Shown: positions 28,728-35,902 of the stretch, in pieces
Numbering within the stretch: position 1 is the stretch's first letter
Layout of the letters: every line of letters starts with the position of its first letter
Position numbers and translations under genes: made by a program
Origin: a virus
IMG/VR virus record: IMGVR_UViG_3300034104_001883
Coordinates: 1 to 35,902 of that record
Direction: 5' to 3' (one strand)
DNA length: 35,902 nucleotides
Notes under the pieces: model-generated
Database searches by the model: none
What the model saw: only the letters and a program-made list of their open reading frames with translations
Told to the model about the DNA's origin: nothing

Positions 28728-30320
28728 TTACATTACAATATTAGGCATCTCTTCATTAGGGTCATCAACTGAATCGTTTTGTTTCTTAACTACTTGTTTT
28801 TTAGGCATGTTATGATTATAAAAGGTAAATACTTGCCCAACTCTTTCGTTAAATCCTAAATCGGGCCAAACCTTATATCGTTTCAATTCCGATGGTATAA
28901 GTTTCATTTCCTCCTTTAACACTTTTCTAATGTAATTTATTTGAGCATTATTATTAGTAGTAAACCAACGATCTTTAATATCTTTTGCAGTAACTTCAAT
29001 AAATTCAATACCAGAATTATTATCAAAATAATCCTGAAATAACTCTTTAATTTCTTTACGCATCCACGCTTTGCTTTCCTCCATAACAACTTGCAATGAT
29101 TCGGTTAAGATTTCATCCTTGGTAAAAACCATACGCGACTTGCTGAAGTCTATTGCAGGAAGTTGCATAAGATATTTAAGAAACTTTGGTATCTCATTAA
29201 ACAAATCGGTTTCAATATTGGTGTTCTTTGCGCCTTTAATAAGTTTAATTTTGCGCACCCAAAAGCGGATTTCCTCTTCATCAATTCGCATAAAGTCAGA
29301 TTCTTTGTTGGTGCAAAAAATAACTTTGCCAAAAAATGGCACACTATAATGACTAACAAACTTTTGAGATACCGACATTGTTTTGGCAGTTGCTATTGAT
29401 TTTAACTTTTCGATTGCGTGTTGTTTATCGATGGTTGTTTCATCAATCATAATAATGTTTTTAGTTGCGTAAGCATCATTAAAGTTACTTGTAAGGTCAC
29501 TTGGATTGATTAAGGTAGTATTTTCCCCAAACAACATTTGAATCCAATTTAAGAAAGTTGTTTTACCCGTTTCGCGTTCGGTAGAAACAAGTGCTAATAC
29601 TGGCAATATTTGGCGCGGATATTCGTAAAGTATTTTCATATACTTCAAACCAAGCTCCCATTGCTCACCAAAAATGTGATTAATCAATCCCAAGGTAACA
29701 GGTATATCATTTGTGTTGACCTCATCAATAACGAATTTATGCGAAAATTTAGCGTAAAGATTATAACAGTTGTTAAGCACTGGAGTATATTCAACATTGT
29801 CAGGATAGATAGTAAAGTCATCAAACTTGTAAATCATTCCGAGTAATTGTTTGCCATGGTCTTGCTTTATTTCATCTTTTTTCCAAGGTTTTAACAAAGT
29901 GTTTTCAGATTTGTATCTGTCTTTTTTGGCTATAACTTTAAAGTAATCAGTTCCCACCCTAATATAAGGTATATCGGATTTCATTATTTCAAAATTAACA
30001 TAAGACATTGCAGCAAATGAATCGCCTTGGAATTTAACTGCGGCTAAAACCATAAATTTAGAAACCTTGGCCCCAACACCAAGTCGGTAACTATTTTTTT
30101 TCATCACATCAATAGTGTTTAACTTATTGAGAATAAAAGTCGGTTTGTTAAGTTCCTGCGGATCTAAACTATCGGGATTAAGTAGGCATACTTCCGTTTC
30201 TGATTTTACATTGCATTGTTTTATGCCCTCAAATATTGACACAAATGAGCCAAAGAAGTTAAAGTAATCCACCGCGTTTAAAAGCGGGTTTGATTCAGGT
30301 TTTTTAAATTTGTCGCTCAT
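28728..30320 (-). CDS. SF3-type helicase (DUF5906 / NrS-1 polymerase-like)
   Basis: The 530-residue protein has Walker A STERETGKTTF (about 246-256) and Walker B NIIMIDET (288-295). Sensor-like regions include HYSVPFFGKVIFCTNKES. This is the DUF5906 helicase domain found with primases in phages and mobile elements. The first 200 residues do not show a primase motif. It joins the upstream VirE_N-type primase gene by a 4-base overlap (ATGA), so primase and helicase are made together though often fused elsewhere. A Lys/Asp-rich tail follows (KKQVVKKQNDS). It should unwind DNA at the phage origin. Confidence 0.85.
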   Translation of the reverse strand: MSDKFKKPESNPLLNAVDYFNFFGSFVSIFEGIKQCNVKSETEVCLLNPDSLDPQELNKPTFILNKLNTIDVMKKNSYRLGVGAKVSKFMVLAAVKFQGDSFAAMSYVNFEIMKSDIPYIRVGTDYFKVIAKKDRYKSENTLLKPWKKDEIKQDHGKQLLGMIYKFDDFTIYPDNVEYTPVLNNCYNLYAKFSHKFVIDEVNTNDIPVTLGLINHIFGEQWELGLKYMKILYEYPRQILPVLALVSTERETGKTTFLNWIQMLFGENTTLINPSDLTSNFNDAYATKNIIMIDETTIDKQHAIEKLKSIATAKTMSVSQKFVSHYSVPFFGKVIFCTNKESDFMRIDEEEIRFWVRKIKLIKGAKNTNIETDLFNEIPKFLKYLMQLPAIDFSKSRMVFTKDEILTESLQVVMEESKAWMRKEIKELFQDYFDNNSGIEFIEVTAKDIKDRWFTTNNNAQINYIRKVLKEEMKLIPSELKRYKVWPDLGFNERVGQVFTFYNHNMPKKQVVKKQNDSVDDPNEEMPNIVM

Positions 30321-31198
30321 GCTTTGTTTAGATAAGTTGGTTGTGTAGTTCCTTTGTTAATCATTTCTTTACTTGTTTGCTTGTATATTGATGCCTTTTG
30401 CGATAGATAACCGTTGCCATCAATCATTTGCTCCATTACACAAATGGCATGTTGTTGGTCAATATAACCAGCACCAACATAACCACCCATTAAGTAAGCT
30501 GCGGCCCTCAATTGTGGATGTCCTGAATCAACAATTACGTTTATTTTTTTTGCAATAATACGTTCAATTGTTGAAGTTTTGTCATCAATTATGTATTGTT
30601 TTACTGCGGGCCTAACGATTTCAATATGCTTTGTTGACCAAGTTTGTGCATCGTTTCTGTGTAATATATCGGCATCGTAACTAATAAACATCGGTAAAAT
30701 GCAGTTTTTTGGTGCTGTATCAAACCCATTGTAACAGTTAAGGTGTCGCTCGATGCCTGCATAGTATTGTTTAAATTCATCAACCGAAGTGCAAATCGGA
30801 ATCTTAACTAAAGCCCTAACACCATGCCTCGAAGCCGATAGCCACGCGGTTATAATGTATTTATATTCGTTAAATAAATACTCTTTAAATTCAACTGCCA
30901 CATCACTTGCTAAGTGGTCAAAGTCGAGAACAAGTAATCCAGTCCAATGTTGAATGTTGGAATACTTACGCGGCCCGTTAACATAAACACATGGAGTAAA
31001 CGAGTATAACTTTGACTTCAATGCTTGCTTTTTGGCCATGTCTTTATTTTCCTCTGCAATACGTATCTCCTCAAATACATTGCGGATATCTTTTTTAGGT
31101 GTTCTAATAGCGTTTATAAGATATTCAAGCGTAACACTACCTAATGGAGTGCTACGTTTGATGTCGGCTTCGTAATAGTTAAATGTTATTGGTTGCAT
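30317..31198 (-). CDS. Primase of the BT4734/VirE_N type
   Basis: The 293-residue protein contains GLLVLDFDHL with Asp92 and Asp94, then ITAWLSASRHGVRALVKIP (116-134). These are the metal-binding and basic substrate motifs of archaeo-eukaryotic-primase-like VirE_N/BT4734 domains common in Bacteroidota. The C-terminus (EQMIDGNGYLSQKA and later) looks helical and may be the PriCT-like linker. It makes primers for phage DNA synthesis; no phage DNA polymerase is seen here, so the host enzyme is expected. The gene overlaps the helicase gene by 4 bases and the nuclease gene by 13. Confidence 0.82.
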   Translation of the reverse strand: MQPITFNYYEADIKRSTPLGSVTLEYLINAIRTPKKDIRNVFEEIRIAEENKDMAKKQALKSKLYSFTPCVYVNGPRKYSNIQHWTGLLVLDFDHLASDVAVEFKEYLFNEYKYIITAWLSASRHGVRALVKIPICTSVDEFKQYYAGIERHLNCYNGFDTAPKNCILPMFISYDADILHRNDAQTWSTKHIEIVRPAVKQYIIDDKTSTIERIIAKKINVIVDSGHPQLRAAAYLMGGYVGAGYIDQQHAICVMEQMIDGNGYLSQKASIYKQTSKEMINKGTTQPTYLNKA

Positions 31199-31749
31199 AG
31201 TTTATTCATATAAAAATTATAATTAACTTCATGCACTTTTGAATAATCTTTACCAGTATGTGGGTAAATTATATGTTCAAATATTGGTTTGTTTTTCATT
31301 GAAAATTGATAACCCATAGGTTTTTTTCTAACTTCACCAATATTAAACACACCTAAGAATCCATTAATAGTATTATGATTATGCAATTTATGATGTCTAT
31401 CTTTATGATATTCTATGCCATCAATAATTTTAGATTCCTCATTCATTATAAAATAATTATAAGATAAAGGCGGGCAAATAAATATAAGTGCTTTTACGAA
31501 AACATTTGGTCTATATTTAAATTCTGCTTTAGAATATCTAATAGCTTGCAAAACATATTCACCAATTTTCTCACCTTTTTTTTTGTCTGGTCTTTTACAT
31601 TCAACTCCAAAGTGATATTTTCCATCAATAGTCAAAAGCAAATCAATTGTACTTTTTTTGCACTTACTTTTAACTTCACGTTGCACTTCAAAATACTTTG
31701 AAAATTGCAATACCAGTTTATCTACAAATTCTTCTTCTGCCTTATTCAT
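31186..31749 (-). CDS. PD-(D/E)XK nuclease-like protein
   Basis: The 187-residue protein has the nuclease pattern STIDLLLTIDGKYHFGVECKR with Asp36, Glu50 and Lys52, followed by the helix YVLQAIRYS with Gln68. A basic His-rich region (HKDRHHKLHNH) lies in the middle. It resembles restriction-endonuclease-like phage enzymes. Roles could be in recombination, host DNA degradation or anti-restriction; no partner methyltransferase is adjacent. It overlaps its upstream and downstream genes (ATGA; 13 bases). Confidence 0.72.
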   Translation of the reverse strand: MNKAEEEFVDKLVLQFSKYFEVQREVKSKCKKSTIDLLLTIDGKYHFGVECKRPDKKKGEKIGEYVLQAIRYSKAEFKYRPNVFVKALIFICPPLSYNYFIMNEESKIIDGIEYHKDRHHKLHNHNTINGFLGVFNIGEVRKKPMGYQFSMKNKPIFEHIIYPHTGKDYSKVHEVNYNFYMNKLCNQ

Positions 31750-31895
31750 TTTTTTGCAGTATTAAGTTTATTGTACTCGGTTTGATTGTAATTAAAGCCA
31801 TCCACTACCATTGCTTTTTGGATAGCGTGATAAATTGTTTCTGCCCATGTTGGAAGGATTTTCCCGCTTGGGGATTTTACTAAAAATATTTTCAT
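31746..31895 (-). CDS. Hypothetical 49-residue protein downstream of the small RNA
   Basis: I start at MKIFLVKSPSGK (31895); the upstream frame to 31931 runs through the terminator stem and is not likely coding. The protein has 49 residues, ends NKLNTAKK and overlaps the next gene by ATGA. It begins just after the T tract of the terminator of the small RNA at 31908. This makes it the first gene that would be read only if transcripts pass that terminator. No family is recognised. Confidence 0.62.
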   Translation of the reverse strand: MKIFLVKSPSGKILPTWAETIYHAIQKAMVVDGFNYNQTEYNKLNTAKK

Positions 31896-31907
31896 TTTGT
31901 TAAAATT

Positions 31908-31964
31908 AAAAAAGCCCTTAAAGATTTGCAAGGGGTCTCACTTCCTTGCGCCTCTATAAGGGCC
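31908..31964 (-). terminator. Intrinsic terminator, long hairpin and T6
   Basis: On the minus strand GGCCCTTA pairs with TAAGGGCT and continues as AGA/TCT and GCAAGG/CCTTGC to a 10-nt loop, followed by T6 then AATTTT. It lies after the exonuclease gene and before the 31895 gene, so it may also limit read-through into the nuclease, primase and helicase genes. Confidence 0.75.
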
Positions 31965-32001
31965 AATATTATTATGTTTCTAAATGTGAGACCGAAACAA
32001 C
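31908..32001 (-). ncRNA. Candidate kissing-loop small RNA (about 94 nt)
   Basis: A consensus promoter (32006-32036) and an intrinsic terminator (31908-31964) bound this non-coding stretch. The predicted RNA forms hairpin A (TGTTTC, 31975-31980, with GAAACA, 31994-31999, as read on the plus strand) with loop octamer GGTCTCAC. It also forms a long hairpin B, whose outer stem GCCCTTA/TAAGGGC and inner stem GCAAGG/CCTTGC enclose the loop octamer GTGAGACC. The two loop octamers are perfectly complementary and could form an 8-bp loop-loop kiss. This could be a stand-alone regulatory RNA or an attenuator for the replication genes. No known RNA family is recognised. Confidence 0.6.
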
Positions 32002-32005
32002 AATG

Positions 32006-32036
32006 CAAACTTAATGAATTTTACCCAAAGTAGCAA
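32006..32036 (-). promoter_or_regulatory. Promoter for the kissing-loop RNA
   Basis: On the minus strand TTG (32036-32034), a 20-base spacer and TAAGTTTG (32013-32006) fit the Bacteroidota consensus. The TAA of the -7 box is also the stop codon of the exonuclease gene. The predicted start is near 32000-32001, exactly before hairpin A. Confidence 0.6.
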
Positions 32037-32634
32037 GCATTTTTTTATCATATTCCTCCAACCATTCGCGACATTGAATGACGCGCTGAATAATTAACTG
32101 CTCAATAGTTACATCGCGTTGCACCTGATAAGCCACCCATCTTTCGTTATCGGGTAGGTCATCATAAACAACCTCGCCATCGTAGTTAGCCTCTTCAGGT
32201 GTATTCATAAGTCCATGAAACACGATAAACGTAGGTCGCTCATAAAGTGCCATGTAACCTCTGCCTTGCCATTCGTAGTCGCTATTCATTCCCTCAATAG
32301 CTTGTTGCTGCAATGTTTTACGTGACCATGCTGCCTTAACATCAACAATTAAATGATTAGTGATTACATCGCAAGTGCCAACCATCCATTCGTTATGAAC
32401 AGTTACCTCGTTTTTTTCTGCCATCCCCAAACCGATTTGCTCGGCCATAAAATCAATCAAATCAATCTCAACCAAGTTACCTTTCATAATGTACTTTGAA
32501 TGTATCTGCTCTCGGTCATTGGCATACCACTCCATTAAGAATGTTTTGCAGGTTGCTGACAATTCGCCTTTAACCTTTGCGTTGCTCATTATCTTCCCGA
32601 TTTGAGAGCAATGTATTCTGAATATCTTATCCAT
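32011..32634 (-). CDS. YqaJ / lambda-Exo-like recombination exonuclease
   Basis: The 207-residue protein has the PD-(D/E)XK motif series of viral recombination exonucleases. It starts with an SQIGKIMS region and KGNLVEIDLIDFMAEQ (51-66). Asp89 lies within VGTCDVITNHL, and LIVDVKAAW has Asp98 and Lys100. The helix YEWQGRGYMALY has Gln123. It would degrade one strand of phage DNA ends to support homologous recombination. It overlaps the 32627 gene by 8 bases. The stop codon overlaps the promoter of the small RNA. Confidence 0.85.
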   Translation of the reverse strand: MDKIFRIHCSQIGKIMSNAKVKGELSATCKTFLMEWYANDREQIHSKYIMKGNLVEIDLIDFMAEQIGLGMAEKNEVTVHNEWMVGTCDVITNHLIVDVKAAWSRKTLQQQAIEGMNSDYEWQGRGYMALYERPTFIVFHGLMNTPEEANYDGEVVYDDLPDNERWVAYQVQRDVTIEQLIIQRVIQCREWLEEYDKKMLATLGKIH

Positions 32635-33091
32635 TGATCAATTGAGCCTCCACCTCGTTAGTAACATTATATTTTTTCTTTATTGCATCAATCGTAACCG
32701 ATCCTGCTGCAATAGCCGCTTTGGCTTTTTCGATTGCTTCACCGCTTAATGTCGGTTTGGTAACTGGCTTAGTTGACACCCTAACCGCATCGTGCATCTC
32801 ACCAAATGCGCGCACCTTTTCGGTAGTTAATACTATTTGTTTGTTTGCCCAATCCTCGATAAATGGGCTACCTAATAGCTTTGAAATTCGCTTAAGGTTA
32901 GTAGCGTTAGCCACCATCGGTTTGCATTCAGCAAAGTGAACGATGCAGCATTCGGATTCGCCACCTTTACCATCGTGTACTTTCTCTTTGTCAACTTTGG
33001 TTATTGTAACTGTCTTGTCTGCATCGGTTAAATCCCACCCTCCGATATAATTTGGGTTGCGTAATTTTTTAAAATGTGTTTTTTGTTCCAT
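32627..33091 (-). CDS. Recombination-associated phage protein (partner of YqaJ exonuclease)
   Basis: The 154-residue protein begins HFKKLRNPNYIGGWDLTDAD, a conserved-looking start found, from memory, in phage genes next to YqaJ-type exonucleases. The middle is beta-rich (KTVTITKVDKEKVHD; IVLTTEKVRAFGEMHDAVRV) and the end is a helical unit EAIEKAKAAIAAGSVTIDAIKKKY. It may bind single-stranded DNA or aid annealing; the annealing role is an inference from position. The start follows an AACTAACA leader. Confidence 0.65.
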   Translation of the reverse strand: MEQKTHFKKLRNPNYIGGWDLTDADKTVTITKVDKEKVHDGKGGESECCIVHFAECKPMVANATNLKRISKLLGSPFIEDWANKQIVLTTEKVRAFGEMHDAVRVSTKPVTKPTLSGEAIEKAKAAIAAGSVTIDAIKKKYNVTNEVEAQLING

Positions 33092-34200: not shown

Positions 34201-34449
34201 TTATGTTAAATATGCTTTAAGAAAATCATAAATAGCAAAATGTTGAGGCTTCCAACGGTCAACTTTACCATTCATTAAACGCGCAATACCTGGCCGAGTG
34301 TAGCCAAATTGTTTAGCGGCTTCGGTAATCGGGTTGCATTTCGCGGGCCTTGATCCGTTATGCTCAACAAGTGCCAACATCTGTTTGTATTCTTGTTTCA
34401 GTTGGGTGTTGCTTGGTTTGATTCGGGGTTGTTCTGCTGTTATGTTCAT
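34201..34449 (-). CDS. Small helix-turn-helix DNA-binding protein
   Basis: The 82-residue protein is Lys-rich and contains a helix-turn-helix-like segment at about residues 42-60 (PITEAAKQFGYTRPGIARLMNG) followed by KVDRWKPQHFAIYDFL. It is the best regulator candidate in the genome. It is encoded right after the methyltransferases (ATGA overlap) and just before the replication promoter (34145-34174), where it could act. The target is not known. Confidence 0.7.
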   Translation of the reverse strand: MNITAEQPRIKPSNTQLKQEYKQMLALVEHNGSRPAKCNPITEAAKQFGYTRPGIARLMNGKVDRWKPQHFAIYDFLKAYLT

Positions 34450-35090
34450 TTTAAGTTTAGTGTTGTTTGTGATTTATATTTATTAAAACGGTTAACTGAG
34501 GCATCGAAGTAATCCTTATCGAGTTCAATAATGTCAAGTAAATAGTTTGTTTTGTCTAATGTGTTCGCTTTGTCAACTGCTATGGCTATTGAGCCGCTTC
34601 CACCATGAGTATCTATGATTTTATCGTTTGGCTTTGCGTATTTTGATAATAGCCATTCGTAAAGGGCAACTGGTTTTTGGGTGGGGTGGATGCGTTTTGT
34701 GTTTGCTGCAGCATTAAAGTCATATTTCTTAGCACTACTATTAAATGAAGTCCAAGCCATTTCAAACTGTGCAAAGGTAATATCTTCACTAAATCCCTTA
34801 TCCCATAATAACCAACAAGGGGATGGCTTTAAATATTCAGTAAAGTAATTACCGCCCCAAATAATTTGATTTACGCTTATTCGCTGTATTTGTTCAAAAT
34901 ATTCTTTAGACGGGATTGATTTATCTCCTCCCTCAAATTTATGGTAGTTACTTTTTTTATCGCCTTTTCTTCTACCCATTGACACATTAACCCCTATCCC
35001 ATAAGGCGGGTCAACAATAGCCAAATCATAATACTTGTCAGGCACATCAACCATAAACTGCATATTGTCGCAGTTGTGAAAGTTTATCAT
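34446..35090 (-). CDS. DNA methyltransferase 2, N4/N6 (DPPY)
   Basis: The 214-residue protein shows beta-class order. DPPY lies at 27-30, the HPTQKP motif at 135-140 and DTHGGSGS (SAM-binding motif I) at 160-167, with an IELDKDYFDASV end. DPPY makes N6-adenine the likely target base, with N4-cytosine as the alternative. It lacks a large target-recognition insertion, so its recognition site is not predictable. It follows methyltransferase 1 with one base between them and may protect phage DNA from host restriction. Confidence 0.88.
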   Translation of the reverse strand: MINFHNCDNMQFMVDVPDKYYDLAIVDPPYGIGVNVSMGRRKGDKKSNYHKFEGGDKSIPSKEYFEQIQRISVNQIIWGGNYFTEYLKPSPCWLLWDKGFSEDITFAQFEMAWTSFNSSAKKYDFNAAANTKRIHPTQKPVALYEWLLSKYAKPNDKIIDTHGGSGSIAIAVDKANTLDKTNYLLDIIELDKDYFDASVNRFNKYKSQTTLNLK

Positions 35091-35091
35091 A

Positions 35092-35902
35092 TTAAAATAG
35101 TGTTGGGTTTAGTTTTGACAATTCTGTTTTAGCGAATCCGAGTTCTGCTATTTCTTTAATAGTTGTTTTTTCTTCTTCAATCCATTTTTTAGCAGCATTG
35201 TAAAAGTCTTTTTTTATTTCAAATCCGTATGATTTACGCCCGCATCTTTCAGCAGCCACTAATGTAGAACCACTTCCAGCGCAAGGGTCAATAACAACAT
35301 CGCCTTTATCGGTAAAAATTTCAATTAATGTTTTTAGTAATTCAATAGGTTTTTGAGTAGGGTGTATTTTTTCGCTTACATTATCACGTGGCCAATCCAT
35401 ACAATTAAAAATCATTTTGCCATTGTTTCTAAATTTTGGCAATTTGTCACGATAAAAAACTAATGCATATTCACAGTTTCCTACAACTTTCATATTTGCT
35501 TTTAATACTTGGGCCGAAAAGTTTTTTCTAAATACTAAATTTATGTAATTATTTAAACCGTATCTTTTAGCAAGTTCAATTAAATACATTTGTTGGTCAA
35601 ATGCGCAAAAAACAATCATACATGGGGCATCGCCTTTTTGCCTTGCTTCTCCATCAACTTTTTTTGTTTTAGTTTCAGCCTTTAACATTGTTGAACAAAA
35701 GTGCATAAATTCTGCAGGTCTAAAATCCTCATCGGTATCAAAAAAACTTTTACCAGCTAATGCGCTTTCACCATTTGCATTGTCTCCATCTTTATACCAT
35801 GATGGATTTGAAGCATAAGCATTATTGCCTAAATTATAAGGAATATCTGCTATAATTAATTGCGCTTTAGGTATCGCATAACCTTTGTAATTTTGAAAAT
35901 GG
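35092..35902 (-). CDS. DNA methyltransferase 1, C-terminal part (joined to 1-66)
   Basis: This is the larger part of the 274-residue methyltransferase that starts at 66 and crosses the circle junction (positions 35851-35902 repeat 1-52). Motif IV is DIPY (24-27), followed by HPTQKP (185-190) and DPCAGSGS (210-217), then RKSYGFEIKKDFYNAAKKW. Order and size are those of N4/N6 beta-class enzymes. An ATG at 35706 gives only residues 71 onward and would lack the catalytic motif, so it is not the true start. The next methyltransferase starts one base after its stop; both are likely to modify phage DNA. Confidence 0.9.
   Translation of the reverse strand, partial: HFQNYKGYAIPKAQLIIADIPYNLGNNAYASNPSWYKDGDNANGESALAGKSFFDTDEDFRPAEFMHFCSTMLKAETKTKKVDGEARQKGDAPCMIVFCAFDQQMYLIELAKRYGLNNYINLVFRKNFSAQVLKANMKVVGNCEYALVFYRDKLPKFRNNGKMIFNCMDWPRDNVSEKIHPTQKPIELLKTLIEIFTDKGDVVIDPCAGSGSTLVAAERCGRKSYGFEIKKDFYNAAKKWIEEEKTTIKEIAELGFAKTELSKLNPTLF
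35851..35902. repeat. Terminal direct repeat, right copy (circular closure)
   Basis: Identical to 1-52. It lies inside the methyltransferase gene, whose frame is continuous across the join. Confidence 0.93.

Follow-up and report, generated by a model that had tools for sequence, protein, structure and literature searches.

What does a pair of adjacent hairpins with complementary loops do between the exonuclease gene and the primase-like genes of a phage? Little is known about how genes are regulated in phages of the Bacteroidota, and the question arises in the window (the whole stretch of DNA analysed here, a 35,902-base virus record), where reading of the sequence revealed a kissing-loop RNA element of ~94 nt on the minus strand, directly 3' of the exonuclease gene. 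The window represents a flavobacterial tailed phage; its genes include those for a terminase, a portal protein, SSB, an exonuclease, and VirE-N/DUF5906 primase-like proteins. Its close relatives are uncultured IMG/VR contigs; among isolates, phages of Flavobacterium and Cellulophaga come nearest, with VirE-N proteins 40-44% identical. Both ends of the window share a 52-bp direct repeat (1-52 and 35851-35902), so that the genome may be complete and circularly closed. Two adjacent ORFs of 214 and 204 aa at 34446-35706 each match parts of an N6/N4 DNA methylase and are possibly a single split or duplicated methylase gene.

Reading along the minus strand, hairpin A comes after TTG-N20-TAAGTTTG, and a linker of ~11 nt separates it from a two-part hairpin B, after which come six T. 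The individual features of the locus are as follows.

32011..32634, minus strand: upstream exonuclease gene (PHROG 5715, E 3.9e-37)
32034..32036, minus strand: promoter TTG, -33-like, read from the sequence
32006..32013, minus strand: -7 box TAAGTTTG, of the flavobacterial sigma-A type TAnnTTTG, read from the sequence
31908..32001, minus strand: predicted leader or terminated RNA of 94 nt, from the -7 box, the end of the T run, the fold, and covariation
31975..31999, minus strand: hairpin A, stem TGTTTC (31999-31994) with GAAACA (31980-31975), from sequence and covariation
31986..31993, minus strand: loop octamer A, GGTCTCAC, pairing with octamer B in 33 of 33 distinct class I sequences
31914..31963, minus strand: hairpin B, outer (terminator) stem 31963-31953 with 31924-31914, from sequence and covariation
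31928..31949, minus strand: hairpin B, inner stem GCAAGG (31949-31944) with CCTTGC (31933-31928), from sequence and covariation
31934..31941, minus strand: loop octamer B, GTGAGACC, its pairing kept in the same 33 class I sequences
31908..31913, minus strand: T run of the intrinsic terminator, six T in the sequence, with a T-rich run in all relatives
31746..31895, minus strand: first ORF downstream of the element, 49 aa (MKIFLVKSPSGK...), its ATG 12 nt after the T run
28728..31749, minus strand: downstream genes for a 187-aa ORF, a VirE-N/BT4734-like protein, and a DUF5906 primase-like protein, from profile matches

The promoter with its 20-nt spacer from TTG to the -7 box, the overlap of that box with the exonuclease stop codon, and the two hairpins with their stems and intrinsic terminator are all present as described in an earlier note on this DNA, and the hairpins proved to be conserved with compensatory changes. 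In F. psychrophilum the -7 box occupies positions -12 to -5 (PMC9723704), which places the predicted +1 at 32001, and from that start the terminated RNA would be 94 nt long. The outer stem of hairpin B spans 11 positions with a single U-U mismatch, and in shape an intrinsic terminator is present between the promoter and the start codon. The octamers GGTCTCAC and GTGAGACC are exact reverse complements, as had been claimed. The element folded with an MFE of -28.8 kcal/mol (z = -3.06 against dinucleotide shuffles), an energy from which the loop pairing is left out. A loose descriptor (8-bp loop complementarity, two hairpins, and a T run) gave 0.25 matches per mononucleotide-shuffled window, and the contention that such an arrangement was unlikely to be due to chance was borne out mainly by the comparative data, in which the octamers covary. 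Elsewhere in the window GGTCTC occurred at position 51 only. Rfam 15 returned no match to the element at the gathering threshold, and at a relaxed threshold the best sub-threshold match was mir-1255 (E 0.4), with none of biological relevance.

Relatives were gathered through the neighbouring proteins, one T1-specific pattern, and a pattern in which both loops were left free. The class I sequences fell into three loop types (GGTCTCAC/GTGAGACC, GATTCCAC/GTGGAATC, and GGTTCGAC/GTCGAACC), and across 33 distinct sequences the loop-loop helix was paired in 264 of 264 cells, with both sides changed in four of its eight pairs. For the same 33 sequences, hairpin A was paired in 100% of cells with one U-A to A-U compensation, the inner stem of hairpin B in 99.5% (both-side changes in 5 of 6 pairs), and the outer stem in 93.9% (7 of 11 pairs), and all helices together showed double changes in 17 of 31 pairs. 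These are the paired changes in the stems and in both octamers that the earlier note had proposed looking for among related phages. The share of cells paired was 97.8%, against 83.0% with shuffled partners and at most 50% with partners slid by 1-3 columns. A second class was found at the same genomic place, with loops ACCGCCAA/TTGGCGGT or a version lengthened by one pair, ACCCGCCAA/TTGGCGGGT; loop B of class II formed part of the search pattern, and the independent evidence for this class consists of the joint C/G insertion and the stems only. Of 30 records including the window, 29 (19 class I and 10 class II) each gave a single strong match to the covariance models; some of the 30 had been picked for carrying the element, and the sole record without it was the most distant, with an exonuclease 57% identical. 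We concluded that both hairpins and the loop-loop helix are established as structure by covariation, far beyond chance, with the loop types co-changing in few evolutionary events and with covariation being blind both to whether helices coexist or alternate and to whether pairing is in cis or in trans.

The position of the element was as constant as its fold. A -7-type box stood directly before hairpin A in all 71 distinct upstream contexts, and 69 of these 71 had a TTG 17-23 nt upstream of the box (59 at N20, 9 at N19, and 1 at N17), a range in which shuffled upstream sequence had a TTG in 12%. An ATG followed 5-16 nt past the T run in 77 of 78 distinct contexts, whatever the downstream gene. 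Upstream in the relatives stood the exonuclease or a Gp157 homologue (the latter in L156), downstream stood the primase module, replaced in L156 by a DnaB module, and the loop types occurred with many different upstream and downstream genes. In the window, TANNTTTG was absent from the minus strand from the element down to 29997 and from the plus strand across 31161-32875, leaving no such promoter facing the element within 700 bp. Because the ATG lies so near the T run and no TANNTTTG occurs down to 29997, transcripts of the downstream genes most likely cross the terminator. The earlier note had left the choice between a regulatory RNA and an attenuator; with the ATG at 5-16 nt, no room for another promoter, and downstream genes that vary, the attenuator fits better and a free-standing small RNA fits less well. 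A near-match promoter, TTG-N20-TAATTTTA, noticed by eye and unscored, overlaps the terminator end in the window only, is absent from the other loop types, and could start a leaderless mRNA. The 49-aa ORF had no match in Pfam or PHROG. In L004 and others, the element is followed by a 93-aa ORF (MKFPFGKFKGTYID...) with an end, YHPDKGGS, that by eye resembles a J-domain.

The device extends well beyond the relatives of the window. A pattern fixing only the -7 region and hairpin A revealed two divergent members, L244 and L247, with hairpin B sequences wholly different and the loops the same (7 and 8 bp); each directly precedes a NUMOD4 gene, and an HNH domain was recognised in one. BLAST with L247 led to the cultured Flavobacterium phages snusmum6-1, hattifnatt9-1, and 11b. 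In the first two the element precedes a helicase gene and has loops GCTTCGAC/GTCGAAGC; in 11b the loops are CGGGCAGG/CCTGCCCG. Plain BLAST of the element against isolates gave mostly low-complexity terminator matches. The annotated helicase start of snusmum6-1 (L253 1487) falls within hairpin B of the leader, and the helicase ATG is likelier to lie past the T run than at the annotated start.

A strict structural search required a -7 box at hairpin A, hairpin A itself, a loop complementarity of 7 or more, a hairpin B that includes a terminator stem, a T run, and an ATG within 32 nt, the extra conditions having been set after the control of a looser version. Only the strict search is relied on here, because the looser descriptor gave 5 matches on reversed genomes. 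In 850 kb from 16 isolates it found six elements (11b, two in snusmum6-1, Danklef_1, FCL-2, and P12002L), against none in the reversed genomes (850 kb) and none in dinucleotide shuffles (2.55 Mb). The element of 11b and the first of snusmum6-1 were known earlier from BLAST, and these four were found by structure:

L262 13640-13750: second snusmum6-1 leader, loops GTCGTCG/CGACGAC, directly before a NUMOD4/HNH gene
Danklef_1: loops GGTGGAA/TTCCACC, before a GIY-YIG gene
FCL-2: loops CATCCAC/GTGGATG, before a Phg_2220_C gene
P12002L: loops GGTCGTAG/CTACGACC, before a replication protein gene

Hairpin A of the second snusmum6-1 leader resembles that of P12002L, and its loops are different and self-complementary. 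The strict search found no element in lotta8-1, FPSV-S1, 6H, CRP6, Arctus_1, P12024S, or B124-14, or in the portions scanned of crAss001, DAC16, phi12:1, and phi17:1; loose-search matches in 6H and FPSV-S1 failed the strict test and look like chance. Some relatives of the window carry a second element with loops GTAGGAG/CTCCTAC (L182 1507+, L185 1303+, L216, L218, L191, L086, L126, and L163), before a C-5 cytosine methylase gene in some and before other ORFs elsewhere; the window itself has one element only. Across the device the element directly follows a flavobacterial promoter, and an ATG, often that of a replication gene or a homing endonuclease, lies 1 to ~25 nt further on; the genes behind the element encode helicase, NUMOD4/HNH and GIY-YIG endonucleases, a replication protein, a Phg_2220_C protein, and a C-5 methylase. 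A pattern scan of bacterial genomes gave chance matches only, and an uncontrolled search of 395 genomes of one phylum found no element.

We also looked for a type-dependent partner of the loops. Loop type was unlinked to the exonuclease tree (12 changes against a shuffled mean of 12.5), and so was the primase clade; the idea of unusually fast loop-type shuffling was rejected on this ground, and the shuffling is read as ordinary recombination in a population that recombines freely. No type-specific partner protein emerged among 17 class I genomes, in which no gene's alleles sort by loop type, and in the genomes checked each T1-T3 octamer had a single copy, within the element. Since no gene sorts by type and no further octamer copies turned up in those genomes, the other octamer is the sole visible type-dependent partner. 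For 11 loop pairs the energy with the own partner was -10.6 to -19.0 kcal/mol and the mean with foreign partners -3.6 kcal/mol; foreign pairs reached -8 kcal/mol or lower in 5 of 110 cases, and every distinct loop A binds its own loop B best. Each leader has a private loop code.

We propose, with a probability of about 0.58, that the element is a leader RNA working in cis as a transcription attenuator, with read-through tuned by loop-loop pairing, and that it would probably serve as a switch where the replication and endonuclease genes of the virus begin. RNA polymerase would begin ~2 nt ahead of hairpin A, which would form first and present octamer A, to be followed by hairpin B as an intrinsic terminator with the complementary octamer in its loop. 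The octamers would pair once octamer B emerges, ahead of completion of the terminator stem, and this pairing would compete with or constrain terminator closure, delaying or distorting the terminator and setting the frequency of read-through into the replication or endonuclease genes 1-25 nt further on. Folding of the growing transcript, which is nested and ignores pseudoknots, paired the two octamers with each other at lengths of ~68 to 84 nt in 6 of 6 variants tested, the mean pair probability exceeding 0.9 across most of that span, and the switch to hairpins A and B came only once the last nucleotides of the terminator stem emerged. Classic attenuators work by base-sharing between alternative helices; octamer B lies outside the terminator stem, so that competition here would be steric or kinetic instead. 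We infer that the RNA is produced, terminated at hairpin B, and modulated during infection, and that loop pairing may lower rather than raise termination.

The main competitor is a free-standing small RNA of ~94 nt with a kissing fold that stabilises it or serves as a binding site for a protein or RNA of the host or the phage; the terminator would then be a plain 3' end, and read-through from the upstream operon would feed the downstream genes. Its own promoter, compact structured transcript, and efficient-looking terminator would suit such an RNA, as would the usual single copy per genome in the window's family, but the T run nearly always stands 5-16 nt ahead of an ATG, the downstream genes differ and in other phages include homing endonucleases, as expected of a portable leader, and octamers confined to the element leave no visible trans target; we consider it unlikely. 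The loops could also pair between RNA copies, as dimers or rings in the style of the phi29 pRNA, where two covarying loops of one RNA likewise pair between molecules (PMC12670572), or a terminated copy could pair with a nascent leader and so sense dose, for which private codes would provide gene specificity. Hairpins just ~11 nt apart favour pairing within one molecule, however, and a packaging role sits poorly with an ordinary terminase and an element away from the packaging genes, making this quite doubtful. Pairing in cis is favoured by the short linker together with the presence of two leaders with different codes in one genome, as in snusmum6-1 and also in relatives of the window. A related extension of the attenuator reading, that these are portable attenuators, a general phage device, in which the private code lets each leader, or each allele in a mixed infection, sense only its own terminated RNA, is similarly speculative and rather improbable; if true, RNA alone would place replication and homing endonuclease genes under dose control, and there would be compatibility groups comparable to plasmid ones.

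Two further explanations seem to us very improbable. The octamers are inverted copies ~53 bp apart that change together, as would the DNA operator half-sites of a repressor of varying specificity with incidental RNA hairpins, but they sit exactly in the loops of independently covarying stems that include G-U pairs, and across the 17 class I genomes no gene has alleles that follow loop type; the repressor reading is already disfavoured. A replication origin or primer RNA at the boundary of the recombination and replication modules would agree with the neighbouring SSB, exonuclease, primase, or DnaB genes and, in the window, with a cumulative GC skew that reaches a coarse minimum near 33 kb, yet relatives have no consistent skew minimum at the element and the same device precedes homing endonuclease genes elsewhere.

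The element is a compact RNA motif outside Rfam that recurs ahead of replication and homing endonuclease genes, and what the earlier note, with one locus in view, could not show is how widespread the device is: it has several loop codes, occurs in cultured phages, and also stands ahead of homing endonuclease genes. Among the papers listed in open-access searches on kissing-loop and leader RNAs of such phages, none described this element, and an earlier description elsewhere is possible. Because it is present in culturable Flavobacterium and Polaribacter phages the motif is testable at once, and because each leader has its own code, compensating mutations designed in pairs would show cleanly whether termination is governed by the kissing loops. 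The motif also provides naturally orthogonal parts for RNA engineering.

By the features tested, the element appears to belong to none of the four systems that it most resembles. Like the phi29 pRNA, in which complementary covarying loops pair between molecules, it is a phage RNA with two such loops, but those of the pRNA have 3-4 nt and serve the packaging motor, whereas those of the element have 7-9 nt, are borne by a terminator, and lie in leaders of non-packaging genes; the element has neither a packaging ATPase context nor an Rfam match. The ToxI-terminator-toxN locus of type III toxin-antitoxin systems has the same order of promoter, pseudoknotted RNA, terminator, and ORF (PMC5772629), but the present element is single and non-repeated, with no ToxN-like gene and with diverse genes downstream. 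The plasmid rep mRNA attenuators of pT181 and pIP501 are under the control of antisense RNA, with alternative pairings deciding read-through (PMC8383071), and share with the element a leader terminator ahead of replication genes; here, in contrast, both pairing partners are in one transcript. Of the working analogues, the closest is the cobalamin riboswitch, in which an upstream aptamer loop kisses the loop of a regulatory hairpin (L5-L13) and so sets expression (PMC10907184). In the element no aptamer core is visible, the kissing partner is itself an intrinsic terminator, and the loops pair over 7-9 uninterrupted bp, whereas in the cobalamin riboswitch a bulged helix underlies ligand dependence.
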